A DNA stretch of 44,946 bases from Bifidobacterium breve (GTDB lineage Bacteria; Actinomycetota; Actinomycetes; Nanopelagicales; Nanopelagicaceae). The stretch covers positions 1-44,946 of the forward strand of contig CAMAPO010000009.1 in assembly GCA_945860245.1 (NCBI GenBank), given 5' to 3'. The notes below the pieces were generated by a model. That model worked only from the letters and a program-made list of their open reading frames with translations, was not told the DNA's origin and searched no databases. The position numbers and the translations under genes are program-made. Of the stretch, positions 7,498-42,087 are shown piece after piece (the stretch's first letter is position 1; every line of letters begins with the position of its first letter).

Positions 7498-8814
7498 ATG
7501 ATGCAAGAAATTTTAATCGGCGTTGATATTGGTACATCACGCCTCAAAGCGGTCGCAACCGATTTAAATCTGCAAGTTTTATCCGAATATGCAGAGCCAA
7601 CGCCGTGGAAACATGAGAAGAATTGCAGCGAGATAGATATGGCGCTGCTCGCTAAAACGGTGATTACCGTTGCTTCCAAGGCTGCTGCAATGGCTGGCGG
7701 AAAAGTCATCGCGATCGGATTTACCGGATTTAGTGAGACCGGAGTTTTAATGGATGCCGCCGGTAGGTCGCTATCTCCTGGATTGGCCTGGCATGATCCA
7801 CGCGGAATTACCGAACCAATTATTAAAGAGCTTGGTGACTTTGAATTTCGGGCTCGCGCTGGTGCGCAGTTAAATCAAATAGTCACAATCTCTAAAACGC
7901 TCTGGCTCAATGAGAATTATCCTGAGTCAAAGAGAGCAAAACATTTTCTCTCAGCACCCGAATGGGTGGCTTACTGCCTCGGGGCAGAGCCAGTTAATGA
8001 ACTCTCTTTAGTTAGCCGAACCGGTTACTTCGATGTGGAAGCGCGCAAACCGTGGGAAGAAGCGATCGCTTTAGTTGGTGGAGGGAAAGACTTCTTAGCC
8101 AGGCTAGTTGTCGCAGGCGAACCAATCGGAATTGTAAATAGCGATGCGCCAGAAAATTTACGTGGTGCGGTGATAACAATTGCAGGGCATGACCATTTCA
8201 CCGCTGCTTATTATTGTGGTGCCATCAACGAGGGCTCACTCTTTGATTCAATGGGAACTGCTGAAGCACTTTTACGAACCTTTAAAGCACCACTTAAGCG
8301 AGATGCAATTGCCGAGTTAGCAGCTGCAAACGTCGGACTTAGTTGCTCAGTAATTGCCGACCATTACACCTTGCTCGGTGCGCTACCAACTGGGCTAACT
8401 TTGGAACGCGCTTGTTCTCTAATCGGCGTAAATTCACTTGATGAGAAAATTGCACTCGGAACGGCAGCGCTAGCCATCGATCCCACCGCAAGTGCGATGC
8501 GTGTGGTTAATGATTATCACGGACTTTCAGTGACAAATTTAGATGATTCTGTCTCACCTGCTGCGCTCTTTCGTGCGACGGTCGAACATTTAGTCGATGA
8601 CTCTGCAGAAATGATTGCGCTAATTGAGAAATTTACTGGGAAAGCAGAGAGCGTAGTTATTGCAGGTGGATGGATAAAGAATCCAGCAATCGCTTTCGCA
8701 AAAGAGCGGCAATTTGGCAAGTACCGAGTCTCTGATGCAACCGAAGCTGGTGCCACCGGTGCGGCAGAGTTTGCAGGTATTGCCGCAGGAAAATTTAAGT
8801 TAAAAGCTAATTAA
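7498..8814 (+). CDS. FGGY-family carbohydrate kinase
   Basis: A 438-residue FGGY kinase, shorter than xylulokinase or glycerol kinase (about 480-500). The N-terminal phosphate-1 motif GVDIGTSRLKA is at residues 7-17, TGFSETGVLMD near 80 follows the GQM-type substrate loop, AGHDHF near 230 carries the catalytic base Asp, and VIAGGWIKNP near 385 is the C-terminal adenosine motif. It starts immediately after the stop of the phosphomannose-isomerase-like gene (TAA-ATG-ATG; a start at the second ATG is equally possible), so both are cotranscribed. A ketose such as fructose, a pentulose or a hexulose is a reasonable substrate class; nothing in the sequence narrows it. It ends back-to-back with the ROK kinase gene without an intervening base. 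Confidence 0.8.
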   Translation: MMQEILIGVDIGTSRLKAVATDLNLQVLSEYAEPTPWKHEKNCSEIDMALLAKTVITVASKAAAMAGGKVIAIGFTGFSETGVLMDAAGRSLSPGLAWHDPRGITEPIIKELGDFEFRARAGAQLNQIVTISKTLWLNENYPESKRAKHFLSAPEWVAYCLGAEPVNELSLVSRTGYFDVEARKPWEEAIALVGGGKDFLARLVVAGEPIGIVNSDAPENLRGAVITIAGHDHFTAAYYCGAINEGSLFDSMGTAEALLRTFKAPLKRDAIAELAAANVGLSCSVIADHYTLLGALPTGLTLERACSLIGVNSLDEKIALGTAALAIDPTASAMRVVNDYHGLSVTNLDDSVSPAALFRATVEHLVDDSAEMIALIEKFTGKAESVVIAGGWIKNPAIAFAKERQFGKYRVSDATEAGATGAAEFAGIAAGKFKLKAN

Positions 8815-9635: not shown

Positions 9636-10298
9636 TTATTTACCGCGTTGACCATAGATATTTTGATATCTGTCATACAACTTATCAACGCTTGCCTGAT
9701 CGATTAATTGCAGTGGTCCTAAAGTCTTTGCGATCCAGGTTGTCTTAGCAACATCTTCACACATAACGGCAGATTTGACTGCCGCAGTGGCATCGTTACC
9801 GATTGCAAAAACACCATGGTTCTTCATTATTACTGCAGATGATCGATGTCCGGTAAGAGTTTCAACAACTCCTTTGCCGATTGCATCATTACCAATTAGC
9901 GCAAATGGACCCAGCGGAATTTCTCCACCAAATTCATCAGCCATCGCAGTTAGCGCACAAGGAATTGCGCTATGAATTGCGCTCCAAGCCGCCGCGTAAT
10001 TTGAATGGGTATGAACAACGCCACCAACTTCTGGCATGTGTCGGTAGATATAGGCGTGAGTAAAGGTATCGCTGGAAGGAGAGAGTTCTCCTTCGATAAC
10101 TTTTCCATCTAAATCACAGATAATCATTTGGAATGGTTTTAAATCTTCATAGCTAACGCCGCTAGGTTTAATCATAAAACTCTTTCCATCAGCCATACGT
10201 TCTGAAACGTTGCCGGCGGTCCAGGCAACTAGACCGTATCGCTGTAGATCAATATTTAGCTTACATACTTTACTTTGCAGATCTTCTTTAGCCGCCAT
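9636..10298 (-). CDS. araD: L-ribulose-5-phosphate 4-epimerase (class II aldolase/adducin fold)
   Basis: A 220-residue member of the AraD/FucA family, zinc enzymes that cleave or epimerise ketose phosphates. Seen: TAGNVSER at residues 27-34 and KPSGVSYEDL near 45 (phosphate binding), SSDTFTH near 77 with the acid residue, the zinc ligands in VHTHSNYAAAWS near 96, and MKNHGVFAIG near 158 with the third zinc His. It begins directly after the TAA of araB (TAA-ATG), so the pair converts L-ribulose to L-ribulose 5-phosphate and on to D-xylulose 5-phosphate. Because D-apulose-4-phosphate aldolase also has this fold, an apulose role cannot be excluded, but AraB beside it favours the arabinose reaction. 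Confidence 0.8.
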   Translation of the reverse strand: MAAKEDLQSKVCKLNIDLQRYGLVAWTAGNVSERMADGKSFMIKPSGVSYEDLKPFQMIICDLDGKVIEGELSPSSDTFTHAYIYRHMPEVGGVVHTHSNYAAAWSAIHSAIPCALTAMADEFGGEIPLGPFALIGNDAIGKGVVETLTGHRSSAVIMKNHGVFAIGNDATAAVKSAVMCEDVAKTTWIAKTLGPLQLIDQASVDKLYDRYQNIYGQRGK

Positions 10299-11984
10299 TT
10301 ATTTTACCGATCCAATCAGGGCGCGATCTCGTATCGCGCGCAGTGAATGCATTGCCCCATTGTGGCCGAAACTTTCATAAAGATCGTTATAGATCTCATA
10401 AAGTTCGCTATAAACCTGGGAGTTTGCTGGATTTGGTTGATAGCGCTCGTCGGCAATGCCACCCATCGCAGCTGCTGCGCTCTGCACATCTTTATAAGCA
10501 CCGGCGGCAACCGCCGCATGAATTGCGGAACCAAGTGCTGGACCTTGACTCGATTTAATGATGGTGATTGGCATATTTAAAACATCAGCATAAATCTGCA
10601 TTACAAACTTATTCTTAATCAAGCCACCAGCGGCGATAAACTCTTTTACTGGTACCCCAGATTCATTAAAGGTTTGCACAATCTTGCGCGCACCAAAAGC
10701 TGTTGATTCGACGATCGCTCGATAAATCTCTTCCGGTCTTGTGGAAAGAGTTAGCCCCATGATCAACCCGGAAAGTTGATGATCAACCAAGGTAGAGCGA
10801 TTACCGCTCTGCCAATCAAGGGCAACTAAGCCATGTGCACCGACTGGTTGTGCGCTAGCTAATTCAGATAGATAGGTATGTATATCTAGACCCTTAGCAG
10901 ATGCAGCCGCGGTGTATTCGTTAGGTGCATAATTATTTGCAAACCAACCAAATATGTCACCGACTCCAGATTGTCCTGCTTCGTAACCAAGTGCGCCCAC
11001 GATGATTCCGCCGTCTACAACTCCACACATTCCCGGCACTTCTGCAAATTTTTCTGAGACCATCACGTGACAAGTAGATGTACCCATAATTGCAACCATC
11101 TGTCCCGGATTAACCGCGTTCGCTGCAGCAGCGGTGACATGCGCATCAACATTTCCTACTGCTACTGCAATACCCTCTTTAAGTCCGGTCCACGCCGCCG
11201 CTTCAGCGGTCAGCGTTCCAGCGACTGCGCCAAGTTGGCCAATTTCATGTTCAAGTTTTTCAGAAACAAAATTGCCAAACTTCGGATTCAAGGAGGCCAA
11301 ATACTCTTTACTTGGATATTTCCCATCCTGATAAATACCTTTATATCCTGCCGTGCCAATATTGCGCACATACTTTCCACAAAGCTGCCAGATAATCCAA
11401 TCAGCGGCTTCCACCCATTTATCCATCGCCTCATAGACTTCTGGCGCTTCTTCCATCAATTGAAGTGCTTTAGCAAATTCCCATTCAGATGAGATCTTTC
11501 CTCCGTATCGAGAAATCCAAGGCTCTTTTCTGGCATGCGCTGCCTGATTTATGCGGTCGGCGTGCGATTGCGCCGAATGGTGCTTCCACAACTTCACAAA
11601 TGCGTGTGGGTTCTTAGAAAATTCGGGGAGTTCACAAAGTGGAGTGCCATCAGATTTAACGGGTAGCACGGTGCAGGCTGTGAAATCAGTAGCGATTCCG
11701 ATGATGTCATTACGTGAAATACCAGATGCTTTTAAAACAGCAGGGATGGTATTTTTTAAAACATCAACATAATCCGCCGGTACTTGTAGCGCCCAATCAG
11801 GTGGAAGTTTGGCACCCGAAGCGGGAAGAGTTTCTTCAATAACCGCGTGTGGGTATTCATAGACTGAAGTAGCGATCTCTGCGCCATCTGAGACTCGCAC
11901 TAGTAGCGCGCGGCCAGAGAGAGTTCCGTAATCAACACCAATTACATATTTATTAGCAAAATTATCGGCTACTGAATCTGGCAC
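10299..11984 (-). CDS. araB: Ribulokinase (FGGY family)
   Basis: A 561-residue FGGY kinase whose length and motifs match ribulokinase, which phosphorylates L-ribulose with ATP. Seen: GVDYGTLSGRALLV at residues 16-29, the AraB-type variant of the phosphate-1 loop, TDFTACTVLPV near 108, HKLWKHHSAQ-like LWKHHSAQSHADRIN near 133, the catalytic Asp in VGNVDAHV near 280, and AAGGLIKNKFVMQIYADVL near 440. The start is GTG at 11984 with a TAGGCT hexamer 6 nt upstream and no ribosome-binding site, suggesting a leaderless message. AraD follows without a gap. No L-arabinose isomerase is present in the window, so L-ribulose must come from elsewhere or the isomerase gene is unlinked. Confidence 0.85.
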   Translation of the reverse strand: MPDSVADNFANKYVIGVDYGTLSGRALLVRVSDGAEIATSVYEYPHAVIEETLPASGAKLPPDWALQVPADYVDVLKNTIPAVLKASGISRNDIIGIATDFTACTVLPVKSDGTPLCELPEFSKNPHAFVKLWKHHSAQSHADRINQAAHARKEPWISRYGGKISSEWEFAKALQLMEEAPEVYEAMDKWVEAADWIIWQLCGKYVRNIGTAGYKGIYQDGKYPSKEYLASLNPKFGNFVSEKLEHEIGQLGAVAGTLTAEAAAWTGLKEGIAVAVGNVDAHVTAAAANAVNPGQMVAIMGTSTCHVMVSEKFAEVPGMCGVVDGGIIVGALGYEAGQSGVGDIFGWFANNYAPNEYTAAASAKGLDIHTYLSELASAQPVGAHGLVALDWQSGNRSTLVDHQLSGLIMGLTLSTRPEEIYRAIVESTAFGARKIVQTFNESGVPVKEFIAAGGLIKNKFVMQIYADVLNMPITIIKSSQGPALGSAIHAAVAAGAYKDVQSAAAAMGGIADERYQPNPANSQVYSELYEIYNDLYESFGHNGAMHSLRAIRDRALIGSVK

Positions 11985-12059: not shown

Positions 12060-12905
12060 ATGACTGTTGTAACGATTCTTGGTGCTGGCGGCAAGATGGG
12101 TAACCGAATTACCAAGCCGCTTCTTGAGACAAAGAAGTATCAGCTTCGCTTCGTCGAGAAATCTGAAGCCGGCCAAGCCCGAATCCGCGAAGCTGGGTTA
12201 CAAGTTATGGATTTAGATGAAGCGCTTAAAGGGACTGATGTCGTAATTTTTACAACACCAGATGCTTTAGTTCGACAGATATCAGATGAAGTCGTGCCCA
12301 AGTTAGATCCCGGTACCAAGATTCTATTTTTAGATCCTGCCGCGATTGCCGCCAGCCGCGTGAAAAAGCGCGAAGACATCAGTTGCTTTGTCTGCCACCC
12401 AACTCATCCTCCAGTATTTAGCTTGCTTGGTGAGACTGATCCGGCGGCGCGCAGAGATTATTGGGGTGGAGGACTTGCTACTCAAGCGCTTGTATTTGCA
12501 ATTGCTTGGGGTACCGAAGAAGAAGCAGACTTGGTCGAAACAATTGCTACTGAAATGTTCGCACCGATTAGCGCTAGCCACCGAATAACTGTGCAGCAAA
12601 TGGCGTTACTAGAGCCAGCGCTTAGCGAAACTTTGATAAATGGCTGCGTAGAAGTTATTACCCAAGGCCTACAAAAAGTTATAGCTCTTGGAGTTCCAGA
12701 AGCTGCGGCAAAAGATTTCTGCATGGGGCATTTGCAAATAAGTATTGCGCTCTTATTTGAAGAATTAAATTGGAAGTTATCTGATGGCGCGCTGATGGCG
12801 CTAAAGCATGCACAAGGTTCGCTCTTTCGTGATGACTGGGCAGATATTTTCGAACCAGAAAATGTTCTTGCCAGCGTTAAGCAAATCACCGGCGGGGATA
12901 AGTAA
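12060..12905 (+). CDS. D-apionate oxidoisomerase-like dehydrogenase (ApnO-like)
   Basis: A 281-residue NAD-dependent protein with an N-terminal Rossmann domain (ILGAGGKMGNRI) and an all-alpha C-terminal domain of the phosphogluconate-dehydrogenase-like type. The mid-protein CHPTHPPVF and SHRITVQQMALLEP, and the C-terminal DGALMALKHAQGSLFRDDW, match the family that includes ApnO as I remember it; ApnO converts D-apionate to 3-oxo-isoapionate. The assignment gains from the neighbours: a TIM barrel of OiaC type 8 nt downstream and an ApnL-like lactonase at the end of the operon. Start: ATG with GGAG 6 nt upstream. A paralogue acting on a different branched or linear aldonate is the main alternative. 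Confidence 0.6.
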   Translation: MTVVTILGAGGKMGNRITKPLLETKKYQLRFVEKSEAGQARIREAGLQVMDLDEALKGTDVVIFTTPDALVRQISDEVVPKLDPGTKILFLDPAAIAASRVKKREDISCFVCHPTHPPVFSLLGETDPAARRDYWGGGLATQALVFAIAWGTEEEADLVETIATEMFAPISASHRITVQQMALLEPALSETLINGCVEVITQGLQKVIALGVPEAAAKDFCMGHLQISIALLFEELNWKLSDGALMALKHAQGSLFRDDWADIFEPENVLASVKQITGGDK

Positions 12906-12913
12906 ATTTAAAG

Positions 12914-13732
12914 ATGAAACTTGGCGTTTCTAGCTTTACCTTTCCTTGGGCGATCGGCGGCATTGAAGCTGATCACCCGGTGGCGATGGACGCCTTCGAG
13001 CTATTGGAGAAAGCGCACGCACTTGGTGCTGATGTTTTGCAGATCGCTGATAACTTGCCGATTGGGCATTTAAGTGATGGTGAATTAAATAGATTGAAAA
13101 GAGCAGCTGATGCCTTCGGTATTTCCTTAGAAGTCGGCACACGAGGTATCAGAAATGAGAATGTTGATCGCTACTTGACGATCGCGCAAGTTCTTGGCTC
13201 TCCTATTTTGCGCATAGTTATTGATAGCAAAGGGCACGAGCCAGATATCGCTGAAATATGCCAATTATTAAGACCATTTGAGGCCAAATTCAAATCTGCA
13301 AATATTAAATTAGCGATTGAAAATCATGATCGTCTAACTTGTGCCGAATTTAACGAGATTATCGATCTCCTTGGTTCGGATTGGGTGGGCATTTGTTTAG
13401 ATACGGTAAATTCTTTAGGAGCGGTGGAAGCACCAAATACAGTTGTGCCAGCACTAGCTCCCCGTGCCATCAATGTTCATATGAAGGATTTTGAAATAGT
13501 GCGCACCAATGGCCAAATGGGATTTACGGTGCAAGGCACGGCGCTCGGTAAAGGACGCTTAGACGTCCCTGCAGTTATTGCCGCCGTTGGTGGCAGCGCA
13601 CGTGAAATTACTTCAGTTATTGAACTCTGGACTCCACGCCAAGATAGTTATTTAGTGACTGTGGAGTTAGAAGATATCTGGGCAAAGGAAAGTGTGGCAT
13701 TTTTACGTAAATCAATAGGATTAAAAGTATGA
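12914..13732 (+). CDS. Sugar isomerase/epimerase-like TIM barrel, candidate 3-oxo-isoapionate decarboxylase
   Basis: A 272-residue xylose-isomerase-like TIM barrel (AP endonuclease 2 superfamily). It begins MKLGVSSFTF as usual in this superfamily, has the metal-ligand strands ENHDRLT (about residue 136), ICLDTVNSLGAVE (about 158) and INVHMKDFE (about 185), and ends with the Glu-containing strand VIELW. Known members include IolE, hydroxypyruvate isomerase and OiaC, which decarboxylates 3-oxo-isoapionate to L-erythrulose. Position directly after the ApnO-like gene and in the same operon as an ApnL-like gene makes OiaC the best guess, but this rests on context. The stop overlaps the SDR start by 4 nt (ATGA). 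Confidence 0.55.
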   Translation: MKLGVSSFTFPWAIGGIEADHPVAMDAFELLEKAHALGADVLQIADNLPIGHLSDGELNRLKRAADAFGISLEVGTRGIRNENVDRYLTIAQVLGSPILRIVIDSKGHEPDIAEICQLLRPFEAKFKSANIKLAIENHDRLTCAEFNEIIDLLGSDWVGICLDTVNSLGAVEAPNTVVPALAPRAINVHMKDFEIVRTNGQMGFTVQGTALGKGRLDVPAVIAAVGGSAREITSVIELWTPRQDSYLVTVELEDIWAKESVAFLRKSIGLKV

Positions 13733-14445
13733 AGCTCAGTGGATATAACGTAGCAATAACTGGTGGTTCCGGTGGAATTGGATCTGCTCTAGCAAAGGGC
13801 TTACTTGAAGATGGCGCAACCGCATTTAACTTAGATTCTGTTAAACCTGACGATCAAAAATCTAACTTTATCGAAGTTGATTTAGTCGATGAAGGTTCGG
13901 TAGAAGAAGCTTTTGCCCAGATTGAAAAACTAGATGCAATAATCGTTTCGGCGGGTGTGCAATTAGTCGGCAGTGATTCCAAAATTGGCGAAGTAACTTT
14001 AGATACTTGGAAGCGCACCCTCGATGTAAATATGACGGGAGCATTTTTATCCATTAAATATGCCATGCCACTCTTAATTAAATCCGGTCGCGGTTCAGTT
14101 ATCTTGATCGGTTCCCCAACCGGTATGACGATGGAGGGCGCTGGTTACACCGCTTATGGCGCATCAAAGGCGGGCATGATGGGTTTATCGCGAATTATCG
14201 CGGTGGATTATAAGGAAGTTGGTGTGCGATCAAATGTGGTCGTTCCCGGCACGATGGCCACACCGCTGATAAAAAAGATTTGGGATGATCCTGAAAAAGG
14301 GCCAGATCTAATTCGGCGAACTCCACTAGGGCGGATGGGTGACCCACGCGATTTGGTCGGATTGGTTAATTGGTTAGTCTCCACGGATTCATCATTTGCC
14401 ACGGGCGCTTCATATGCAGTCGATGGCGGAATGACTGCGCGGTGA
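13729..14445 (+). CDS. Short-chain dehydrogenase/reductase
   Basis: A 238-residue classical SDR. The cofactor loop TGGSGGIG is at residues 11-18, the SAG strand near 74 corresponds to the NNAG motif, the catalytic Ser lies in ILIGSPTGM near 128, and Y143-x3-K147 (YGASK) completes the active site; DGGMTAR at the C-terminus is the usual end. The acidic residue after the second strand (NLDS) suggests NAD rather than NADP, which fits oxidation. It is embedded between the OiaC-like and ApnL-like genes with 4-nt overlaps on both sides, so it should act in the same pathway; one reasonable role is oxidation of apiose to apionolactone, and another is reduction of a 3-oxo intermediate. Confidence 0.75.
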   Translation: MKLSGYNVAITGGSGGIGSALAKGLLEDGATAFNLDSVKPDDQKSNFIEVDLVDEGSVEEAFAQIEKLDAIIVSAGVQLVGSDSKIGEVTLDTWKRTLDVNMTGAFLSIKYAMPLLIKSGRGSVILIGSPTGMTMEGAGYTAYGASKAGMMGLSRIIAVDYKEVGVRSNVVVPGTMATPLIKKIWDDPEKGPDLIRRTPLGRMGDPRDLVGLVNWLVSTDSSFATGASYAVDGGMTAR

Positions 14446-16223
14446 GCACTAACAATTGGCCCGATACAACTCGGGTTTCTCATGGTGGCTTCACCTTAGA
14501 TTTAGCGCGTGATGCAATCCGAAATATTAGATATGAAGGCGTGCAACTTATTGATCTGCTTTATACAGCAATTCGTCCTTTAGATTGGTCAACCCTAAAA
14601 GCTGATGAGTATTCAGCAGATGTGCAGATTATTGGAAGCGATTGTGTAATTACAATTACTGAGGCATTTGCTGGGGCGCTAGCAGCACAAACAAAAATTA
14701 ATCTTTCGAGCAGTAATACTTTTTCAGTTGGATATGAGTTAAAAGGCTTATCTGAATATCCAGTCAGTCGTTGGGGGGTTTGTTTCTGCCTCAACACCGC
14801 AGAATGGATGGGATCTAGTGTGGCCTCATCAGGAAATACTTACTTACTTGCGCAAGATATTTCTCCACAACGCGTTATCGATGGAGTAATACAAGGACTT
14901 TTCCCCGCTTCGAACGAGATGCACTTTGTCGCACCAGACCAGCGTTATATAAAGGTACTTTCTGTTGGCAAGGTTTTGGAAGCCGAAGATCAGCGCAACT
15001 GGACAGATAACACTTACAAGATTTATAGCGGCTCATTAAGTGAGCCATTTCCATTTATTATGAGCGCCGGTGCTGTCTGGACGCAGAGCGCTGACTTTGA
15101 AGTGGGCGTTTCTAAGCGAGTCGAGGCCGATCCAAGCAAGATTTTGCTCCGTGAAATTGAGGCGCTGCCAAGTATCGGGCTCCAATTTAATGCTGATCCC
15201 CTGCTATCCCCTGATGATCTGGAAAAGGCTTTTGTTCTGCTAGAAATTGATCATCTTCGGATCAATGAAGAGTCGCTAACTCCTCAGAAGATTGCTACCA
15301 CGGCAGCAAATGGCCTCATCTTGGAAGTCGCCTTGCTCTCTTCTAACGATGGTGATGCATTGAAGGCAGAGGTTTTGCAACTGAGCGAAAGAGTTCCGGC
15401 CGGCTCACGCCTGCTTATACAAAGAGAAGGCCGTAAAGTTGTTGGCGAAACAGATCTACCAAGGAATGAATCTCTCAATACTTATATTCCGGGATCGGAT
15501 GCTTTCTTAGTTGATCTACAGAACGCAAAAAATAGCTTTGGAAATTCTGTTTCTTACTCGATGGCACCAACAGTGCACTCTTTTGATACCGAAACTATCT
15601 TCAAAACTCTCTCTACTCAGCAAGAGTCAACTCAGTTTGCGCAAAAAAACATTGCACCGCAAGTCTTCATCTCGCCCATTACCTTTTCAACTCGCGGTAA
15701 TCCTAATTCTGGACATTCCAGAGATCAACGACTTATTTATGCAGAACCAGAAATGGCACTGCATATTCGCACTATTGAAGGAGCCGCTTGGACCCTTGGT
15801 TCAATTTTTGCACTTGCGAGCGCGGGCGCATTCTCTGGCACTTGGCACGAACTATTTGGTGAATTTGGAATTACTTATTCGCAATCGGACTCCATAAAAT
15901 TCTCACCCACTTTTCACGCCATATCCGCCCTTGGTGCGCATCGCACACATCAAATTACGATCGCTACATCCCGTGATAATTCGTGGGTAGCATTTGAAAA
16001 TCGCGAAATGAAATCAATTCTTGTGGCATCACTTCGACCATGGACTGTAGAAATCACTGCAAATGTATTAGTCGGTTATAAATCCATTCAGAGTCTGCGG
16101 GGCGATGATTGCGAAAAAGCGAGCCAAATTATGGATTGGTGGTCATATGCTGAGACAAGCCCAATATCGGCCGACTTTCCGTTGACCCTGATGCCCTTCG
16201 AGATAGCCCTCATTCGGGGGTAA
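14442..16223 (+). CDS. D-apionate lactonase-like protein (ApnL-like)
   Basis: A large soluble protein of 593 residues with no signal peptide. I take GTG at 14442 as the start because it overlaps the SDR stop (GTGA) and upstream sequence in frame is the SDR gene read in another frame. By eye the protein has a beta-rich first third (RYEGVQLIDLL, VITITEAF), a middle part around residues 250-450 compatible with a TIM barrel, and a C-terminal beta region; EDQRNWTDNTYKIYSG near residue 185 looks like an active-site block. This three-part plan matches the D-apionate lactonase family as I remember it, which hydrolyses apionolactone to apionate. A different glycoside-processing protein remains possible. 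It ends in a hairpin overlapping the stop. Confidence 0.55.
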   Translation: MSTNNWPDTTRVSHGGFTLDLARDAIRNIRYEGVQLIDLLYTAIRPLDWSTLKADEYSADVQIIGSDCVITITEAFAGALAAQTKINLSSSNTFSVGYELKGLSEYPVSRWGVCFCLNTAEWMGSSVASSGNTYLLAQDISPQRVIDGVIQGLFPASNEMHFVAPDQRYIKVLSVGKVLEAEDQRNWTDNTYKIYSGSLSEPFPFIMSAGAVWTQSADFEVGVSKRVEADPSKILLREIEALPSIGLQFNADPLLSPDDLEKAFVLLEIDHLRINEESLTPQKIATTAANGLILEVALLSSNDGDALKAEVLQLSERVPAGSRLLIQREGRKVVGETDLPRNESLNTYIPGSDAFLVDLQNAKNSFGNSVSYSMAPTVHSFDTETIFKTLSTQQESTQFAQKNIAPQVFISPITFSTRGNPNSGHSRDQRLIYAEPEMALHIRTIEGAAWTLGSIFALASAGAFSGTWHELFGEFGITYSQSDSIKFSPTFHAISALGAHRTHQITIATSRDNSWVAFENREMKSILVASLRPWTVEITANVLVGYKSIQSLRGDDCEKASQIMDWWSYAETSPISADFPLTLMPFEIALIRG

Positions 16224-16358: not shown

Positions 16359-17423
16359 ATGGCAAAGCTTTTCTCACGCCGCACTGCAGCAATTGTTGCT
16401 GTAGCCGCAGCGTCAATGCTCGTGCTATCTGCATGTTCAAATAGCGATGAAGCCAGCGACAAAGTTGCTGTTTCACTAATTACAAAAGATCAGTCAAACC
16501 CATTCTTCGTTGCAATGATCAAGGGTGCTACTGCTAAGGCAGAAGAACTCGGCGTAGATCTAACGGTTACATCTGGAGTAGATGAATCAGATTACGCAGG
16601 TCAGATCGCAGCGGTTGAAAACGCAATTTCTGCAAAGCACGCTGGTATCTTGATCGTTCCAGTATCAACAGAAGTTAACGCAGCAATCACCAAGGCCCGC
16701 GAAGCTGGTCTATACGTAATTGCCCTTGACACAGCACCAGATCCTGCTGACATCGTTGACATCACCTTCGCAACAGATAACCGTGAAGCTGGTCTCTTAA
16801 TCGGTCAGTGGACAGCTGCAAAGCTTGCTGGCAAGAAGGCAACAATTGCACTTCTCGACATCTTCGATGACCGCATTGTGTCTGTTGACTACATGCGCGA
16901 TAACGGATTCCTTGCAGGTATGGGAATTGATGTTAAGGATCCAAACGTCATGGGTGACGAAGACAAGAAGGGCAAGTACTCAGGCGGAGATTACGAGATC
17001 GTTGGAAACGTAGCGACAGGCGCTAACGAAGACGGCGGCCGTACAGGTCTTGAGCAACTTCTTGCTAAGAACAAGAACATCAACGTTGTTTACACAATCA
17101 ACGAGCCAACAGCAATCGGTGCTTGTGCTGCAGCAGCTGCTGCTGGCGTAAAGATCGATGTAATGGTTTCTGTTGACGGTGGCGGCGCTGGTATCGGTGC
17201 TGTTAAGTCAGGTTGCATCAATGCAACTTCACAGCAGTACCCATTGTTGATGGCTGATCTTGGTGTTCAGGCTATCTACGACATCGTGAAGAACGGTACA
17301 AAGCCAACTACTTCAGAAGGCCTTGACTTCTTCAACACCGGCGTTAAGTTGATTACTGATGACCCACAAGATGGAGTTCCATCAGAGACAACTGAATACG
17401 GTCTAGCAAACGCTTGGGGTTAA
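16359..17423 (+). CDS. ABC sugar transporter substrate-binding lipoprotein (RbsB/FrcB type)
   Basis: A 354-residue periplasmic-binding-protein-like lipoprotein of the ribose/fructose family (Peripla_BP_4). The signal peptide has a basic n-region (KLFSRR), a hydrophobic core and the lipobox LSAC at residues 23-26, so the mature protein should be lipid-anchored outside the membrane. The first lobe begins VAVSLITKDQSNPFFVAMIKGA, as in RbsB, and VVYTINEPTAIG and VMVSVDGGGAG are the second-lobe strands. AGGAGG (16344-16349) 9 nt before the ATG is the best ribosome-binding site in the window, and a strong terminator after the gene suggests it is made in excess over the permease. The ligand is unknown; proximity to the apionate genes makes apiose or a related pentose a candidate. 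Confidence 0.88.
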   Translation: MAKLFSRRTAAIVAVAAASMLVLSACSNSDEASDKVAVSLITKDQSNPFFVAMIKGATAKAEELGVDLTVTSGVDESDYAGQIAAVENAISAKHAGILIVPVSTEVNAAITKAREAGLYVIALDTAPDPADIVDITFATDNREAGLLIGQWTAAKLAGKKATIALLDIFDDRIVSVDYMRDNGFLAGMGIDVKDPNVMGDEDKKGKYSGGDYEIVGNVATGANEDGGRTGLEQLLAKNKNINVVYTINEPTAIGACAAAAAAGVKIDVMVSVDGGGAGIGAVKSGCINATSQQYPLLMADLGVQAIYDIVKNGTKPTTSEGLDFFNTGVKLITDDPQDGVPSETTEYGLANAWG

Positions 17424-17460
17424 CCCTTGCTCTTTAGTGAATAACTAAAGAAGAGTGTTG

Positions 17461-17495
17461 AAAAAGGGCGGCTGCTTCGGCAGTCGCCCTTTTTT
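17461..17495 (+). terminator. Strong intrinsic terminator between binding protein and permease
   Basis: A long GC-rich stem (AAAAAGGGCGGCTGC pairing with GCAGTCGCCCTTTTTT, one mismatch) closes a TTCG tetraloop and ends in six Ts. A weaker AT-rich hairpin (17430-17455) precedes it. Located in mid-operon, it would make most transcripts stop after the binding-protein gene, with read-through for permease and ATPase. Confidence 0.9.
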
Positions 17496-17609
17496 AACTA
17501 AAACGGCAGTTGTAATAAGGTTTTAGCACTAGGGTTCGGCTACCTAGCGGTAAACAAAGAAGTAGAGAAAAATTAATATCCGTAAATTTACACTTCGAAA
17601 GGATCACAA

Positions 17610-18653
17610 GTGAGTCAAGATACGGCCACATACGATGCAGCGGCAGAGTTTCATGACCGCGCATCTCTTAGCCAAAAAGCGCAAGCACTCCTACATAAAT
17701 ATCCATGGCTGAGCTCGACAATGGTGCTAGTTGTAGCATCGATAATCTTTAGTTTTTTCAATGAAAACTTTTTAACACCATCTAACTTCTCACTTATCCT
17801 TCAACAAGTAGCGATCGTTGGCGCAGTAGCCGCCGGACAGACGCTAATTATTTTAACTGCCGGTATCGACCTTTCTTGTGGCGCTATCGCAGTCTTTTCA
17901 TCAATGACGATGGCGAAGTTAGTTCAAGGAACACCTGGCGAAGGTGAACCAGTCGGCTGGGCTATCTGGTTAGCATTCCCAGCCGGACTACTTGTCGGCA
18001 TGCTCGGAGGCGCAATAAATGGCTTCTTAGTAACAAAGGTGAAATTGCCACCGTTTATCGTGACCTTGGGTACTTACAATGTATTCCTTGCGCTGACTCT
18101 GACCTTAACTAAGGGAACTGTTCCTTCAATTGAGATGGATCCATTCCTATTAACACTTGGTCACTATGTAAATCTCGGACCATTCCGAGTCACAACGGGC
18201 GTTCTCTTTATGTTCGCGATGTATATGGTCTTGGCCTTCGTTCTGCGTTACACCTCGTGGGGACGCCACGTATACGCAGTCGGTGATGATATTGATGCCG
18301 CGCGCTTGGCAGGTATCTCAGTTAACCGCGTTCTAATGAGCGTTTACATGGTTGCCGGTCTTACCTTCGCACTCGCAGCTTGGATCGTAATTGGCCGCGT
18401 AACAGTGGCCAGCCCAAATACCGGTGGCGATCTAAACCTTGATGCGATCACTGCGGTAGTTATTGGCGGAACATCGCTATTCGGTGGCCGAGGAACAATC
18501 TTTGGTTCGCTAATCGGAGCGATAATCGTGGGTGTTTTCCGTAATGGTCTAACACTTGCTGGTGTGGATCTTTATTACCAGCTCCTTGCAATCGGACTTC
18601 TTATTATCTTCGCGGTCTCTGTTGACCAGTGGATCAGAAAGGCACGCAAATGA
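17610..18653 (+). CDS. ABC sugar transporter permease (RbsC/FrcC type)
   Basis: A 347-residue inner-membrane permease of the branched-chain-amino-acid/ribose permease family, with an unusually long cytoplasmic N-terminus (about 35 residues) followed by about nine hydrophobic segments. Seen: GQTLIILTAGIDLSCGA near residue 78, the conserved RbsC-type block with the Asp, PPFIVTLGT near 148, and GDDIDAARLAGISVNRV near 225, which corresponds to the EAA-like coupling loop that contacts the ATPase. The start is GTG 17610 with GAAAGGA about 6 nt upstream. It overlaps the ATPase gene by 4 nt (ATGA) and follows the binding-protein gene after a terminator. Confidence 0.9.
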   Translation: MSQDTATYDAAAEFHDRASLSQKAQALLHKYPWLSSTMVLVVASIIFSFFNENFLTPSNFSLILQQVAIVGAVAAGQTLIILTAGIDLSCGAIAVFSSMTMAKLVQGTPGEGEPVGWAIWLAFPAGLLVGMLGGAINGFLVTKVKLPPFIVTLGTYNVFLALTLTLTKGTVPSIEMDPFLLTLGHYVNLGPFRVTTGVLFMFAMYMVLAFVLRYTSWGRHVYAVGDDIDAARLAGISVNRVLMSVYMVAGLTFALAAWIVIGRVTVASPNTGGDLNLDAITAVVIGGTSLFGGRGTIFGSLIGAIIVGVFRNGLTLAGVDLYYQLLAIGLLIIFAVSVDQWIRKARK

Positions 18654-19444
18654 GTAAGTCACCAATTCTTCAAGCAGTTGGGCTAACTAAGTCCTACGGT
18701 CGCGTCGTCGCACTTGATGGCTCAGATCTAGAACTATTTCCAGGTGAAGTTCTCGCAGTAGTCGGCGATAACGGAGCTGGTAAATCGACCATGATTAAAT
18801 GCTTATCTGGTGCTGAAATTGCTGATGAAGGTCAGATAATTCTTGATGGCCAACAAATGTCATTTAAGCGACCACAAGATGGGCGTCATGCCGGAATCGA
18901 AACTGTGTACCAGACACTTGCTGTTGCACCGGCTCTCGATATCGCATCGAATCTCTTTCTCGGTCGTGAAATGCGCAAGAAAGGTCCACTCGGCTCTGTT
19001 CTTCGTATGATCGATAGCTCTGGAATGCGCAAGGCTGCTAAAGAACATATCTCAGCCCTTGGTATCGGAACAATTCAGAACATCACACAGGCTGTAGAAA
19101 CACTTTCTGGTGGACAGCGTCAAGCAGTTGCCGTTGCTCGCGCTGCGGCGTTCGGTCAGAAATTAATCATCCTTGATGAGCCAACAGCGGCTCTTGGTGT
19201 TCGTGAGTCACGTCAGGTACTCAAGTTAATCGAGTCTCTTCGTGATCGCGGTATGCCAGTTATCTTGATCTCACACAACATGCCTCAGGTCTTTGAAGTT
19301 GCAGATCGCATCCAGATTCAACGCCTCGGAAAGCGTGCTGCTGTAGTTACCCCAAAGAGCCACAGCATGAACGATGTTGTTGCGATTATGACTGGCGCTA
19401 TGACAGTCGATAAGAAAGACCAAGCACTCAAATCAGTTCGCTAA
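18650..19444 (+). CDS. ABC sugar transporter ATPase, single-domain (FrcA type)
   Basis: A 264-residue ATP-binding subunit. I chose ATG 18650, which overlaps the permease stop (ATGA), rather than a TTG 21 bases upstream inside the permease gene. Walker A is GDNGAGKS near residue 38, the signature motif is LSGGQRQAVAVARA near 144, and Walker B is KLIILDEPTAAL near 165, with the H-loop His in LISHNMPQV. Ribose importers of RbsA type have two fused ATPase domains (about 500 residues); this protein has one, as in FrcA of fructose importers, so a homodimer should power the permease. The GMC oxidoreductase follows after 27 nt. Confidence 0.9.
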   Translation: MSKSPILQAVGLTKSYGRVVALDGSDLELFPGEVLAVVGDNGAGKSTMIKCLSGAEIADEGQIILDGQQMSFKRPQDGRHAGIETVYQTLAVAPALDIASNLFLGREMRKKGPLGSVLRMIDSSGMRKAAKEHISALGIGTIQNITQAVETLSGGQRQAVAVARAAAFGQKLIILDEPTAALGVRESRQVLKLIESLRDRGMPVILISHNMPQVFEVADRIQIQRLGKRAAVVTPKSHSMNDVVAIMTGAMTVDKKDQALKSVR

Positions 19445-37859: not shown

Positions 37860-38852
37860 CTATCGGGTGAAACGCTTCTCCTGCATTAGCGCGTCCCAAA
37901 TAACCGCTTGGGCAGCAAGGGCATCCTGAGAATTCTGAGCCTGATTAAGGGCGTTGATATCTACGCGATCGCAGACTTCTTCTAAGTAAGTAATAATTTC
38001 GATGCTGCGAGTAAGTGCGCGCACCGGATCTTCGCGGAATGGAAATTGATCAAGCAAAATCGGATCTGACCAATTAATACTGCGCAGTGCCAACATATAT
38101 TCAATAGTTTCAAATAAGTGAACAGATGCAACTGGCAGGTCATCATCCCAACCACGCCAATTATCGTTTAGCTCAGCGCTAACCAACTTACCGTGGCGGT
38201 GGATAAGCAAAAGTGATTCCGCAGGGGTTTCTTGCGCCATCAGTGAATGGCCGAAGTCCATAACAATTCCGACGTTATCAACTTTCATCTCGCTTATAGC
38301 AAGAAGCGTTTTGGCAGCTGTTGCAAGGGTCATGCGAACGCGTGGTTCTTTGCATTTGTATTCAATGGCAAATTGCACCTTTGGATTTTCGTTTGCTAGA
38401 TCGCGGATACCGTTGATGGTGTAATCCCAGATCTGTAAATAATTTGCTTGCAATGGGAAATCAAAACCATCTTGGCCGGGCCAGAATTTAACGTAAGTCG
38501 CGCCTAGAATTTCAGCGGCTGCGATTGCTTCACGTACTCGGTCTTTGGTTTGTGAGCGCAACTTGGTATCCGGGTTGGTAAATGAGCCCTTTACATACTC
38601 GCGCATATAAATATGTGGAGTTGTGGCGCGGCAGATAAGTCCGTTGTCATCGAGCATCTTCTTGATCTCAACTGCAGTGCGCTCTGGAATATCGAATGGG
38701 ACGTTGATATCAAGGTGTTTTAGGCCAGGGACTTTGGCGGCATCTTCAATCATTTGTTTGCTGGTACGAGTTGGGCCGTAACCATCTCCGGCATAACGGT
38801 CAACGAATTGGCCAAATGCCCAGATGCCTGCGCCGTAAGTTAGTTTTCCCAT
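37860..38852 (-). CDS. Xylose-isomerase-like TIM barrel, candidate D-apiose isomerase
   Basis: A 330-residue TIM-barrel isomerase of the AP-endonuclease-2 superfamily. It starts YGAGIWAFGQFVDRYAGDGYGP, and carries FAIEYKCKEPRVRM near residue 162 (metal Glu), VGIVMDFGHSLMA near 198 (metal Asp/His), and LVSAELNDNWRGWDDDLPV near 230 (Glu, Asp). The last part (VHLFETIEYMLAL, ILLDQFPFREDP) resembles L-rhamnose-isomerase-like and apiose-isomerase-like proteins. It is the final gene of a leftward operon with split transketolase and an FGGY kinase, which is the gene set of the known D-apiose isomerase pathway. Another pentose such as D-lyxose or L-arabinose is the main alternative. Confidence 0.6.
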   Translation of the reverse strand: MGKLTYGAGIWAFGQFVDRYAGDGYGPTRTSKQMIEDAAKVPGLKHLDINVPFDIPERTAVEIKKMLDDNGLICRATTPHIYMREYVKGSFTNPDTKLRSQTKDRVREAIAAAEILGATYVKFWPGQDGFDFPLQANYLQIWDYTINGIRDLANENPKVQFAIEYKCKEPRVRMTLATAAKTLLAISEMKVDNVGIVMDFGHSLMAQETPAESLLLIHRHGKLVSAELNDNWRGWDDDLPVASVHLFETIEYMLALRSINWSDPILLDQFPFREDPVRALTRSIEIITYLEEVCDRVDINALNQAQNSQDALAAQAVIWDALMQEKRFTR

Positions 38853-38916
38853 TTTTAGCCTGCTTTCTATTCTTATATTGAGATCTTATGATGTTTACTC
38901 GGTCGTGAATAGGGCT

Positions 38917-40338
38917 TTACTCATCTTTCATGCGCGATGCCGCCAAGGCTTTTCGCCAGGTTTTAAGCCTTTCTTGCCGCTCTGGTTCTGAGATTTTCGG
39001 TAGATACTCGTCGTATTTCAATTCAATCTTCTCCAGATCTGAAAGTGTGACAAGACCTGCACCGAGTGATGCAACCATCGCTGCACCGAATGCAGATAGT
39101 TCAAGAAGTTGTGAAGATTTAATCTTCTTGCCACTTAGATCTGCCAGCATCTGCATCAGATATCTGTTGCGCGCACCTCCGCCATCGGCGTAGAGAGTTT
39201 CAATCGTGATATCCGATTTAGCAAAATCTTCAAGAACATCATTAATTTGTGCTGCAGTTGATCTCAGCGCTGCAGCAGCTAAATCTGATCTCGTCGAGCC
39301 GCGGGTAAGCCCGGTAATAATTCCGGTTGCTTCGCGATCCCACCAAGGTGCACCTAACCCGCTAAATGCTGGAACTAGCTCCACTTGTTCTGTTGATTTT
39401 GGCGCCAACTCCGCTAATTCATCTGGAGTTGTGCCGAGAAGTTCTGCCAACCAGACCAAGGTTGAACCAGTGGAGAGAATATTGGCTTCGGCGGCTTGGG
39501 TTATCTGACTATCGATTTGCCAAGCGATTGTCTGTGGTTTTGTTTTTGTAAGACCCATAATTGAAGTTCCGGTACCGAAGGTAGCTTTAAAGTTTCCAGA
39601 CTTCCAACCTTGGTGAGCAAAGAGGGCGGCATGAGAGTCGCCCATAATTCCAGATAGCGGTACCTCGTTACTTAGCCCGAGCGCCTGCATATTTGTGCAA
39701 ATGTGTTTTTCATTAGATGCACAAACTCGAGGTAGTTGCGATTCATCAATAGCAAATACCGAAAGAAGTTCTGGGCTCCATTGACCGGTGTTGATATCCA
39801 ATAACTGAGTGCGGCTAGCGCTGCCTGCTTCAACAATATGTCCCGCACCCAGTTTGAATACGATCCAAGAGTCAATTGTTCCGATACAAATATTGGCGCT
39901 TTGATATTTATTATTTTCAAATAACCATTGCGTCTTGAGGGCGGAGAACATCGGATCTAATTCCAGGCCGCTGATTGCCTTAACTTGGGCAGCGTTTTTC
40001 AACTGTTTTTCCGCAAGTTCTGATGCTCTGCGATCTTGCCAGGTGATTACCTTGGTGAGGGCCTTACCAGTGTTGCGATCCCAAAGTAAAACTGATTCGC
40101 GCTGAATACTTAAGCCAACTGCAGCGATTTTATGAGCGCTAGTTATCTCTTTACTTGCAGTAACGACAGATTGCCAGATCTCTTCAGGATCTTGCTCTAC
40201 CCACCCAGCTTTCGGAAAAGTTGTCGCAATTTTAACTTCAGCCTGAGCAACGACTTTTCCACTTACATCTATCGCAAGTGCCTTTGTAGATCCGCTACCT
40301 TGATCGATAGCTAAAATTATGGGGGGGTTATCTGCCAT
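38917..40338 (-). CDS. FGGY-family carbohydrate kinase, candidate D-apulose kinase
   Basis: A 473-residue kinase close to glycerol kinase and xylulokinase in layout. Seen: ILAIDQGSGSTKALAIDV at the N-terminus, SIQRESVLLWDRNTGK near 80 (the Q-R-E substrate loop of glycerol kinases), TWQDRRA near 105, MGDSHAALFAHQG near 230 with the catalytic Asp, the ATP-site TFGTGTSIM near 258, and YADGGGARNRYLMQMLADL near 395. Two Pro codons near the start are CCC CCC within a run of seven Cs. The gene overlaps the end of the second transketolase gene by 11 nt, so translation is coupled; the TIM-barrel isomerase follows. Sequence alone does not fix the substrate. Confidence 0.75.
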   Translation of the reverse strand: MADNPPIILAIDQGSGSTKALAIDVSGKVVAQAEVKIATTFPKAGWVEQDPEEIWQSVVTASKEITSAHKIAAVGLSIQRESVLLWDRNTGKALTKVITWQDRRASELAEKQLKNAAQVKAISGLELDPMFSALKTQWLFENNKYQSANICIGTIDSWIVFKLGAGHIVEAGSASRTQLLDINTGQWSPELLSVFAIDESQLPRVCASNEKHICTNMQALGLSNEVPLSGIMGDSHAALFAHQGWKSGNFKATFGTGTSIMGLTKTKPQTIAWQIDSQITQAAEANILSTGSTLVWLAELLGTTPDELAELAPKSTEQVELVPAFSGLGAPWWDREATGIITGLTRGSTRSDLAAAALRSTAAQINDVLEDFAKSDITIETLYADGGGARNRYLMQMLADLSGKKIKSSQLLELSAFGAAMVASLGAGLVTLSDLEKIELKYDEYLPKISEPERQERLKTWRKALAASRMKDE

Positions 40339-41278
40339 TTTTCAAAAGTTCTCGCGCCGCAGCGGCGATGGCATCGGCTGTAAGTCCAAAGTGTTCTAAT
40401 AAATAGGAAGCAGATCCAGTTGGCGCAAATGAATCAATGCCCATCAACTTCATCGGAGTCGGATGGTTCTGGACCACAAACTCAGCGATTGCGCCACCGA
40501 CTCCGCCGCGGGTTACTGATTCCTCAGCGGTGATGATTGCTTTCGTTTCTTTAGCTGCCGCCAGTATTTCTGCAGTATCAAGAGGTGAAACGGTTGAAAG
40601 ATTAATTACGCGTGCCGATATTCCATCAGCCTTTAACTGTCCTGCCGCCGCGATTGCGCGAGAAACCACAGTGCCGGTAGCGATAATGGCTATGTCACTG
40701 CCATCGACAATGCGCATCGCTTTATTGGGAATAAACGCTGGGCTCTGACCTTGTGAAACAGATGGAACTTTGAAGCGACCAATGCGCATAAAGACTGGGC
40801 CTTCTGTATTTGCCGCCCAACGAACTGCACCTTCAGTCTGCGCTTCATCCGCTGGTAAAACAATTGGCAGCGAATCAAGAGCGCGCATCCAAGCAATATC
40901 TTCAATTGAGTGATGTGTTGGGCCGAGTTCACCGTAAGAAATACCTGGGCTCATGCCGCAGAGTTTTACATTGGTGCGGGTATAAACAACGTCAGCTTTG
41001 ATCTGTTCTAGAGCGCGGCCAGTTAAAAACGGAGCGGCAGCGCATACAAATGGTGTAAATCCAGCATTCGCTAGCCCGGCAGCGACGCCGACCATATTTT
41101 GTTCTGCGATTCCGACATCGATTAAACGATCTGGAAAAAGGTCGCGGAATTCGCCTAAATTACTTGATCCGACTGAGTCGTTGCAGACAACAACAATCTT
41201 TTGGTTTTCATTTGCGAGGGCAATTAAAGTCTTGGCAAAAATTATACGATTATCAAACTCTTCAAGTTTTTCGCTCAT
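40328..41278 (-). CDS. Transketolase, C-terminal subunit (split transketolase; apulose-4-phosphate type candidate)
   Basis: A 316-residue protein containing the pyrimidine-binding and C-terminal domains of a thiamine-diphosphate enzyme. DRLIDVGIAEQNMVGVAAGLA near residue 50 carries the catalytic Glu that activates the cofactor aminopyrimidine (GIAEQNM), GPTHHSIEDIAWMRAL near 118 is the canonical TKT block, and AEESVTRGGVGGAIAEFV near 252 lies in the C-terminal domain. It is encoded after the N-terminal subunit with an ATGA overlap. Full-size transketolases are single chains of about 660 residues; split ones occur in actinobacteria and archaea, and the AptA/AptB pair of the apiose pathway has this layout. 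Confidence 0.8.
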   Translation of the reverse strand: MSEKLEEFDNRIIFAKTLIALANENQKIVVVCNDSVGSSNLGEFRDLFPDRLIDVGIAEQNMVGVAAGLANAGFTPFVCAAAPFLTGRALEQIKADVVYTRTNVKLCGMSPGISYGELGPTHHSIEDIAWMRALDSLPIVLPADEAQTEGAVRWAANTEGPVFMRIGRFKVPSVSQGQSPAFIPNKAMRIVDGSDIAIIATGTVVSRAIAAAGQLKADGISARVINLSTVSPLDTAEILAAAKETKAIITAEESVTRGGVGGAIAEFVVQNHPTPMKLMGIDSFAPTGSASYLLEHFGLTADAIAAAARELLKNGR

Positions 41279-42087
41279 AGTTTTCCCAATTGCGCTAGCG
41301 CCTCGGCATATTGCTCTGCAGATGGAACTTTATGGTGCCACTCAGCTTTGCCTTCCATAAAGTCAACGCCTTTACCCTTTGTGGTCTGGGCGATAACAAC
41401 ACGAGGTTTTGTCTGTGGATCGGTAAAAGCTTTTAATAAAGCTACATAATCGTGGCCATCTGCAACTACAACTTCCCACCCAAATGATTCAAATTTCTTA
41501 TCAAGCGGATCAAGTTCATTTGTCTTTGAAGTTGGGCTACCTTGCTGAAGACCATTTCGGTCTATGACTGCAATTAAATTGGTAAGTTTGCGGTGGCCGG
41601 CAAACATAGCGGCTTCCCAATTGCTGCCTTCTTGCAATTCACCATCGCCCATAATTACAAAAGAGCGGCTGCCGTTTTTCTCTAATTGCGCGCCGATAGC
41701 TGTGCCGACTGCGATAGGAAAACCATGACCAAGTGGACCAGTATTTGATTCAACGCCTGGAACCTTGTTGCGGTTGGGGTGGCCATTTAAATTACTTAAA
41801 GGTCGCGCAAAAGTTTTTAGATCTTCAACAGGAAAAAAGCCACGCACCGCCAAGGTTGAATAAAGGGCAACCGCGGCATGGCCTTTACTTAAAATTAAAC
41901 GATCGCGATCAGCTTTATTTGGATCTTTTGGATCAACTCTTAAAACTGCGCCAAAGAGCGTTGCCAAGATATCTGTAACAGAGAAGTCGCCGCCGATATG
42001 GCCCATGCCGGCGCCTTTTATTGTGTGAAGGATTTGTAGGCGGATTTCTCGCGCTAAATCAGCGATTTCCTGCGTACTCATCGACAT
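41275..42087 (-). CDS. Transketolase, N-terminal subunit (split transketolase; apulose-4-phosphate type candidate)
   Basis: A 270-residue protein with the pyrophosphate-binding domain. Seen: GAGMGHIGGDFSVTDILATLF near residue 27 (His-binding region), DRLILSKGHAAVALYS near 62, GPLGHGFPIAVGTAIG near 118, and the thiamine-diphosphate/Mg motif GDGELQEGSNWEAAMFAGHRKLTNLIAVIDRNGL near 148 (GDG...N spaced about 28). It opens the operon and its start has AAGG 4 nt before the first ATG; a second ATG two codons on is possible. In the apiose pathway such a pair transfers the two-carbon unit of apulose 4-phosphate to glyceraldehyde 3-phosphate, giving xylulose 5-phosphate and dihydroxyacetone phosphate. 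A housekeeping-type paralogue is the alternative. Confidence 0.8.
   Translation of the reverse strand: MSMSTQEIADLAREIRLQILHTIKGAGMGHIGGDFSVTDILATLFGAVLRVDPKDPNKADRDRLILSKGHAAVALYSTLAVRGFFPVEDLKTFARPLSNLNGHPNRNKVPGVESNTGPLGHGFPIAVGTAIGAQLEKNGSRSFVIMGDGELQEGSNWEAAMFAGHRKLTNLIAVIDRNGLQQGSPTSKTNELDPLDKKFESFGWEVVVADGHDYVALLKAFTDPQTKPRVVIAQTTKGKGVDFMEGKAEWHHKVPSAEQYAEALAQLGKL

Follow-up and report, generated by a model that had tools for sequence, protein, structure and literature searches.

The branched pentose D-apiose, a sugar of duckweed walls and rhamnogalacturonan II, is degraded along non-oxidative and oxidative routes. The non-oxidative pathway relies on ApsI, AplK, and the split transketolase AptA/AptB. 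In the OiaC branch of the oxidative pathway, which is reportedly the work of Carter et al. in 2018, ApsD, ApnL, ApnO, and OiaC are followed by an L-erythrulose kinase and isomerases. Here, we analyze a stretch of 44,946 nucleotides (‘the window’), which is contig C9 of genome G000, an actinobacterial assembly of the order Nanopelagicales that is 1.39 Mb in size, split into 47 contigs, and 93% complete. We consider it fairly probable that two gene sets of the window serve the use of D-apiose or its oxidized forms: a four-gene cassette resembling the oxidative pathway (set A, 12060–16223) and an operon of the non-oxidative apiose type (set B, 37860–42087). An initial annotation of the window described a single apiose operon, set A, and overlooked set B.

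The oxidative-type cassette

The four open reading frames (ORFs) of set A all lie on the plus strand; the first two are 8 bases apart, and each of the next two junctions is a 4-base overlap. They agree with the four near-touching or overlapping genes first described, in the order first given:

12060..12905, plus strand, ApnO-like oxidoisomerase (PF16896, 164 bits; PDB 5t57; 49/56 conserved columns)
12914..13732, plus strand, OiaC-like decarboxylase, xylose isomerase-like TIM barrel (PF01261; 29/30 conserved columns)
13729..14445, plus strand, short-chain dehydrogenase/reductase (SDR), probable aldose (apiose) 1-dehydrogenase (NCBIfam aldose dehydrogenase, 150 bits, below the cut-off of 341)
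14442..16223, plus strand, divergent ApnL homologue, probable lactonase with an altered active site (NF049900, 70 bits; predicted local distance difference test score, pLDDT, 84.6)

In family terms, the first product is a PGDH_C dehydrogenase, the second belongs with the xylose isomerase-like TIM barrels, and the third is an SDR; the fourth, 593 amino acids long, has no Pfam family. The ORF list begins the fourth frame at an upstream TTG (14370); the GTG at 14442 matches the 593-residue frames of its orthologues.

The ApnO-like protein matches PF16896 (PGDH_C) and two structures, PDB 3c24 and PDB 5t57 (231 bits, E = 1.7e-67), the latter of which we take to be an ApnO. Its identity is 42% with 5t57 and 34–35% with three actinobacterial ApnO homologues. 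We examined the neighborhoods of its relatives in named genomes, using the loci of the best 80 of 532, of which 4 belong to the clade of the window’s organism and 76 lie outside it, with an ApnO at most 45% identical to that of the window. Counted by clusters of similar proteins, the families beside ApnO include a Gfo/Idh enzyme (50/80), an OiaK-type kinase (50/80), a RuBisCO-like protein (RLP; 48/80), ApnL (45/80, the sum of two clusters), and OiaC (16/80, four of these 16 in the clade). In an NCBIfam spot check, all four kinases matched OiaK best (843, 537, 478, and 463 bits; one over the cut-off of 700), both RLPs matched OiaX best (790 and 444 bits; one over the cut-off of 700), and the single proteobacterial ApnL tried scored 1052 bits with NF049900 (cut-off 750). 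An apiosidase-family gene adjoins ApnO in locus L094 and lies one gene off in L166 (loci of Fibrisoma and Paenibacillus), and a weaker match (69 bits) is found near ApnL in the actinobacterial locus L084. In six actinobacterial loci with both ApnL and ApnO, selected for having ApnL, OiaC is present in 6/6 and an SDR in 4/6. The first cassette gene thus encodes a PGDH_C dehydrogenase with relatives inside apiose-type clusters. Ninety-two other rows define 56 conserved columns, of which the clade’s ApnO retains 49. Of the columns shared by the other clades, it keeps 53/62, and the corresponding counts for those clades are 55/68, 57/65, and 54/56 (ten rows outside the four clades were left out), a loss that appears similar to theirs.

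The adjoining OiaC-like protein belongs to PF01261 (AP_endonuc_2), has no NCBIfam match, and keeps 29 of the 30 conserved columns of 23 ApnO-linked OiaC rows (a short piece, L096, and six repeats were dropped); it is, therefore, a PF01261 protein beside ApnO with its conserved residues in place. A tree of OiaC-like proteins does not settle the place of the clade between ApnO-linked and ApnO-less groups, and the OiaC reading is favored because the ApnO gene is adjacent. Both the ApnO-like and the OiaC-like family assignments of the initial annotation are upheld.

Nine of 40 records with OiaC-like matches on plasmids were examined. Plasmids of Erwinia and Pantoea carry, in this order, a Dak kinase, a TIM isomerase, OiaC, and a PGDH_C protein. 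In Pararhizobium, Shinella (two records), S. meliloti, and Salipiger, an OiaC-like gene lies together with split transketolase and SDR genes; 3/5 of these loci also have Dak genes, and none has an ApnO within 6–7 kb, while the loci of Paracoccus and Marivivens have neither ApnO nor transketolase annotated nearby, the latter with a Dak gene. The five loci with a split transketolase (L266, L295, L296, L299, and L300), all alphaproteobacterial, share a recurrent unit of a TRAP transporter, split transketolase, SDR, and OiaC-like gene, without ApnO, which looks like an uncharacterized pathway.

The SDR was searched against 40 SDR-like stretches, in which four actinobacterial SDRs are counted twice (in short and long loci). 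The clade’s own proteins scored 389–460 bits. The nearest kin outside the clade were the SDRs of four actinobacterial OiaC-ApnO-SDR-ApnL clusters (178–189 bits), and all others scored 94 bits or less. A reference search found no Gfo/Idh gene in these four clusters, and because the nearest kin of the SDR sit there, it is likely the first dehydrogenase, probably taking the place of ApsD. The initial annotation was right to list an SDR, but gave it no step in the pathway.

For the fourth protein, the only match is NF049900 (70 bits, E = 1.5e-19, cut-off 750). This model is narrow, since 13 of 394 genomes of the class match it and 0/394 pass its cut-off. Among 61 other ApnL-family rows (two genomes counted twice), 57 columns are conserved at a level of 90% or more, and the clade homologue keeps 33 of them. 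It also keeps 27 of the 46 columns that all other ApnL clades share, compared with 24/28, 27/27, 27/30, and 25/27 (86–100%) in four other clades, and so does not retain the conserved columns of the superfamily as a set. An E-x-E-D-x-R-x-W-x-D-x-x-x-K-x-Y core is kept (E180, E182, D183, R185, W187, D189, K193, and Y195). In an AlphaFold2 model (pLDDT 84.6), the N-terminal part is beta-rich, and the TIM barrel part resembles arabinofuranosidases and GH39 enzymes. The full-length frames are stop-free in 8/8. This is the least conserved cassette gene (64–84% identity to the window orthologue). We regard the protein as a homologue of ApnL, no clear ApnL, and a probable lactonase with an altered active site. 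The ApnL-like lactonase of the initial annotation is thus retained as far as homology goes, but not as ApnL proper; its score far below the cut-off and the loss of motifs conserved in the 61 rows take it halfway to falling outside the lactonase family, the outcome that the initial annotation had named as fatal to its own proposal. Across orthologues, ApnO (93–99%) and the ApsI-like isomerase of set B (97–99%) are far more conserved than the ApnL homologue.

The same genome encodes a second ApnL homologue (G000:C4:11410-13179), which scores 239 bits with NF049900 and covers nearly the whole model. Its locus (L004:2513-14219) also contains a Gfo/Idh enzyme and an SDR, and nearby are an amino-acid-type ATP-binding cassette (ABC) transporter, MtnA, MtnK, an aldolase-SDR fusion, and an RLP. 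The Gfo-ApnL-SDR unit, with rhodanese-like and IlvD-like genes (both named by eye), recurs in genomes G483 and G426. An order-wide search for ApnO found no second copy in the window’s genome.

The non-oxidative-type operon

Set B lies on the minus strand and joins a split transketolase, an FGGY kinase, and an isomerase in one operon, the combination that marks the non-oxidative D-apiose pathway:

41275..42087, minus strand, transketolase N half, AptA-like (Transketolase_N; 45% to E. coli SE15 AptA; 63% to Deinococcus)
40328..41278, minus strand, transketolase C half, AptB-like (Transket_pyr and Transketolase_C; 39% to E. coli AptB)
38917..40338, minus strand, FGGY kinase, apulose-kinase-like (36% identity across 495 columns with the kinase of the E. 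coli apiose cluster)
37860..38852, minus strand, TIM-barrel sugar isomerase, ApsI-like (PDB 3ktc, ‘Xylose isomerase’, E = 3.5e-92)

The best NCBIfam match of the kinase is glycerol kinase (390 bits, below the cut-off of 590). Its 36% identity to the E. coli apiose-cluster kinase compares with about 22% for both another FGGY protein of the window (7498–8814) and AraB. The E. coli SE15 counterparts of set B are ECSF_RS02710 (45%), RS02715 (39%), and RS02700 (36%), which PMC13001218 identifies as aptA, aptB, and aplK of the E. coli apiose cluster. In the same paper, strains carrying this cluster grew on D-apiose, and Escherichia is described as lacking apsI and having two oxidoreductases instead, a replacement that fits the set B isomerase filling that place.

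Similar sets exist elsewhere. The same four genes are found on three Streptomyces plasmids, in one case adjoining pectinesterase and GH28 genes, and on one Rhizobium rhizoryzae plasmid. In Deinococcus, the transketolase and kinase occur with SDRs 60–62% identical to the two SDRs of the E. coli cluster, and in Roseibium (L137), transketolase halves and an FGGY kinase (TktN, TktC, FGGY) lie upstream of an ApnO-SBP-ABC-Gfo-ApnL series (SBP, solute-binding protein) with one 327-amino-acid frame between. The split transketolases that adjoin OiaC-like genes stand farther from set B, the one compared being 35–37% identical. In genome G002 (L254:6066-8898), the set B kinase gene is duplicated in tandem.

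Distribution and phylogeny

ApnO is found in 10 of 201 genomes of the order (nine full-length and one fragment), as is the ApnL homologue (10/201, two of them fragments). The cassette sits between araBD and an ABC transporter in seven other genomes; in G058, the contig ends just past it. For the four genes, the ratio of nonsynonymous to synonymous substitution rates (dN/dS) is at most 0.13 in all computable ortholog pairs, except one near-identical OiaC pair (0.77 at a dS of 0.01), and all four are under purifying selection within this one clade of related genomes. The full-length ApnO orthologues in 9/201 genomes, the shared placement, and the low dN/dS indicate that the cassette is not a chance arrangement. 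Two genomes show its loss: in G193, the start of ApnO is joined to the end of ApnL, with stops present, and in G136, only the end of ApnL is left, with AraB and AraD also gone.

Judged by score and frame length of the kinase alone, set B is present in 7/7 cassette genomes with a completeness of 90% or more, compared with 0/14 others; the kinase was not seen in G170, G190, and G136, which are 74–82% complete. The whole of set B was confirmed in eight genomes, namely the window’s and seven more, G193 included. In a tree of the 3.6-kb tpi region, the nine cassette genomes and G193 form one clade (100/99). Four loci of the clade, with ApnO 95–98% identical, come from contigs of metagenome-assembled genomes titled Actinobacteria or Actinomycetota, one of them from Lac Pavin. 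The genome size of 1.39 Mb and these actinobacterial kin bear out the small-genome actinobacterium proposed at the outset. Freshwater is probably the habitat of the organism, and its genus may be Planktophila (acI).

Proposed reactions

If set A followed the known steps of the oxidative route, the SDR would oxidize apiose to apionolactone, the ApnL homologue would open the lactone to apionate, ApnO would oxidize and rearrange apionate to 3-oxo-isoapionate, and OiaC would decarboxylate the latter to L-erythrulose. In set B, the ApsI-like isomerase would produce apulose, the FGGY kinase would convert it to apulose 4-phosphate, and the split AptA/AptB-like transketolase would yield dihydroxyacetone phosphate and xylulose 5-phosphate. 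By these steps, set B would lead all the way, as a complete route, to central metabolism. We infer every substrate, as well as what the SDR and the ApnL homologue do, from the protein families, orthology, conservation, and gene neighborhoods observed. Apiose, or its oxidized forms, is the best call on these sequence grounds, mainly through the ApnO neighborhoods and set B. The apiose substrate of the initial annotation is likely, and its list of reaction steps is borne out only in part.

Transketolases are known to accept L-erythrulose as a ketol donor, which makes the split transketolase the best local candidate for its use. One may go further and propose that both sets belong to a single new apiose route, in which L-erythrulose from set A would be a direct ketol donor for the set B transketolase, giving a kinase-free exit, and the altered ApnL would be a lactonase with a new specificity. 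We hold this to be a speculative and rather improbable extension. A similar pairing occurs in S. meliloti (L296) and Shinella (L300), where a split transketolase, an SDR, and an OiaC-like gene have no annotated kinase within 6 kb in gene tables that are incomplete.

Neighboring genes

Two further groups of genes flank the cassette:

16359..19444, plus strand, sugar ABC transporter: binding protein, permease, and ATPase (Peripla_BP_4; ABC_tran; the best permease match is of the ribose type, below cut-off)
9636..11984, minus strand, AraD and AraB, divergent L-arabinose genes (NCBIfam ribulose-5-phosphate 4-epimerase, 344 bits, and ribulokinase, 794 bits, both over cut-off)

Compared with the other genes of the same genome pairs (dS 0.32–2.6), the binding-protein gene (16359–17423) has a low dS of 0.14–0.36, the pattern to be expected under very high expression. 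A GMC oxidoreductase gene (19472–20965) directly follows the transporter and is kept with it in both cassette-loss genomes. Farther along, at 24073–29318, are two large genes (557 and 1191 amino acids) with no Pfam match at 1e-6.

Weighing the alternatives

Several observations weigh against apiose as the substrate or against the joint reading of the two sets. The stem of the clade’s ApnO is 3.14 changes per column long, and the tree, built by a quick method with long-branch warnings, does not settle the clade’s place. Seven of the 56 conserved ApnO columns are changed in 8/8 clade rows, including A65T preceding a conserved PD and C115T within HPCHP, and the ApnL homologue has lost LHP, TELNR, and D439. 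Since the cassette genomes form one clade, the co-occurrence of sets A and B counts once and is not statistical proof. OiaC-like proteins are also found in settings without ApnO, and split transketolases also serve other clusters. The initial annotation correctly placed the kinase acting after L-erythrulose outside the window, but a Dak1 kinase is also missing from 8/8 cassette genomes tested, four of them closed (single-contig, 99%), and RpiB is present in one copy per clade genome, with no extra one. In the actinobacterial clusters L084 and L087, genes for a Dak kinase and for an RpiB-type isomerase lie by the cassette-type genes, in L084 also one for a TIM-family isomerase. An apiosidase was found in 0/11 cassette or remnant genomes. 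The ABC transporter is not cassette-specific, because it stays in G193 and G136, without an intact cassette (L034 and L033), and its binding protein shares only 27% identity with the one encoded in the E. coli apiose cluster.

Some of these observations would suit a cassette acting on another branched or linear sugar lactone, of the hamamelose type or from an unknown algal sugar, with a different lactone opened and a different 3-oxo acid formed. The long, isolated ApnO branch, the altered ApnL motifs, and the missing Dak kinase (eight genomes) and apiosidase (11 genomes) all point that way, and PMC8914248 reports that Ochrobactrum has a hamamelose route with an RLP. The cassette, however, has neither an RLP nor an OiaK-type kinase, its OiaC and ApnO retain the columns shared between clades no worse than do those of other clades, and set B gives a separate signature of the apiose type 22 kb away. 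We judge this explanation unlikely, albeit one to be taken seriously. Far less credible is a cassette feeding AraB and AraD, in which a hexonate would be oxidized and decarboxylated to L-ribulose and passed on to xylulose 5-phosphate. The start of AraB, on the opposite strand, is 75 bases from ApnO, AraB and AraD are at least 88% identical among cassette genomes, and AraA was not found in 4/9 of them (G000, G104, G170, and G190). Yet these four are only 74–97% complete, AraA is present in the other five, AraB occurs in 30/201 genomes compared with 9/201 for full-length ApnO, and among the loci of the best 80 of 532 ApnO relatives, no AraB-AraD pair lies by ApnO outside the clade, where three loci have weak AraB matches (27–69 bits). 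We place AraB and AraD as L-arabinose genes and do not count them as part of the cassette system. That the oxidative cassette is a relic no longer making a full pathway seems to us most improbable. The remnant in G193, the ApnL end in G136, and the low conservation of the ApnL homologue would fit decay, but dN/dS is low throughout save for the OiaC pair noted above, and the full-length ApnL frames are intact. We therefore keep D-apiose or its oxidized forms as the preferred reading.

Comparison with known systems

If this reading is true, a sugar from plant walls is used by actinobacteria that have small genomes and probably live in freshwater, and that keep two routes for it in 1.4 Mb; the missing apiosidase (11 genomes) would then make them dependent on free apiose released by others. 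A literature search found no paper joining ‘apiose’ and ‘Nanopelagic’, and one for apiose, freshwater, and Actinobacteria returned nothing that looked relevant by title and opening of the abstract, PMC6302742 being among the matches.

Set A shares with the oxidative D-apiose pathway the adjacent ApnO and OiaC families, and its operon also includes an ApnL homologue, like those of the actinobacterial loci L083 and L087. It differs in having an SDR and not a Gfo/Idh dehydrogenase, in an ApnL far below cut-off, and in lacking a Dak kinase (eight cassette genomes) and an extra RpiB. The second ApnL homologue of the genome is of the same superfamily, but is found with a Gfo/Idh-type enzyme and an SDR in a genome without a second ApnO. 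With the non-oxidative pathway of E. coli SE15, as given in PMC13001218, set B shares the transketolase (45%/39%) and the FGGY kinase (36%). Unlike the E. coli cluster, which has two SDRs, set B contains an isomerase and no sugar transporter genes; this isomerase lies beside the transketolase and kinase, as in Streptomyces and Rhizobium.

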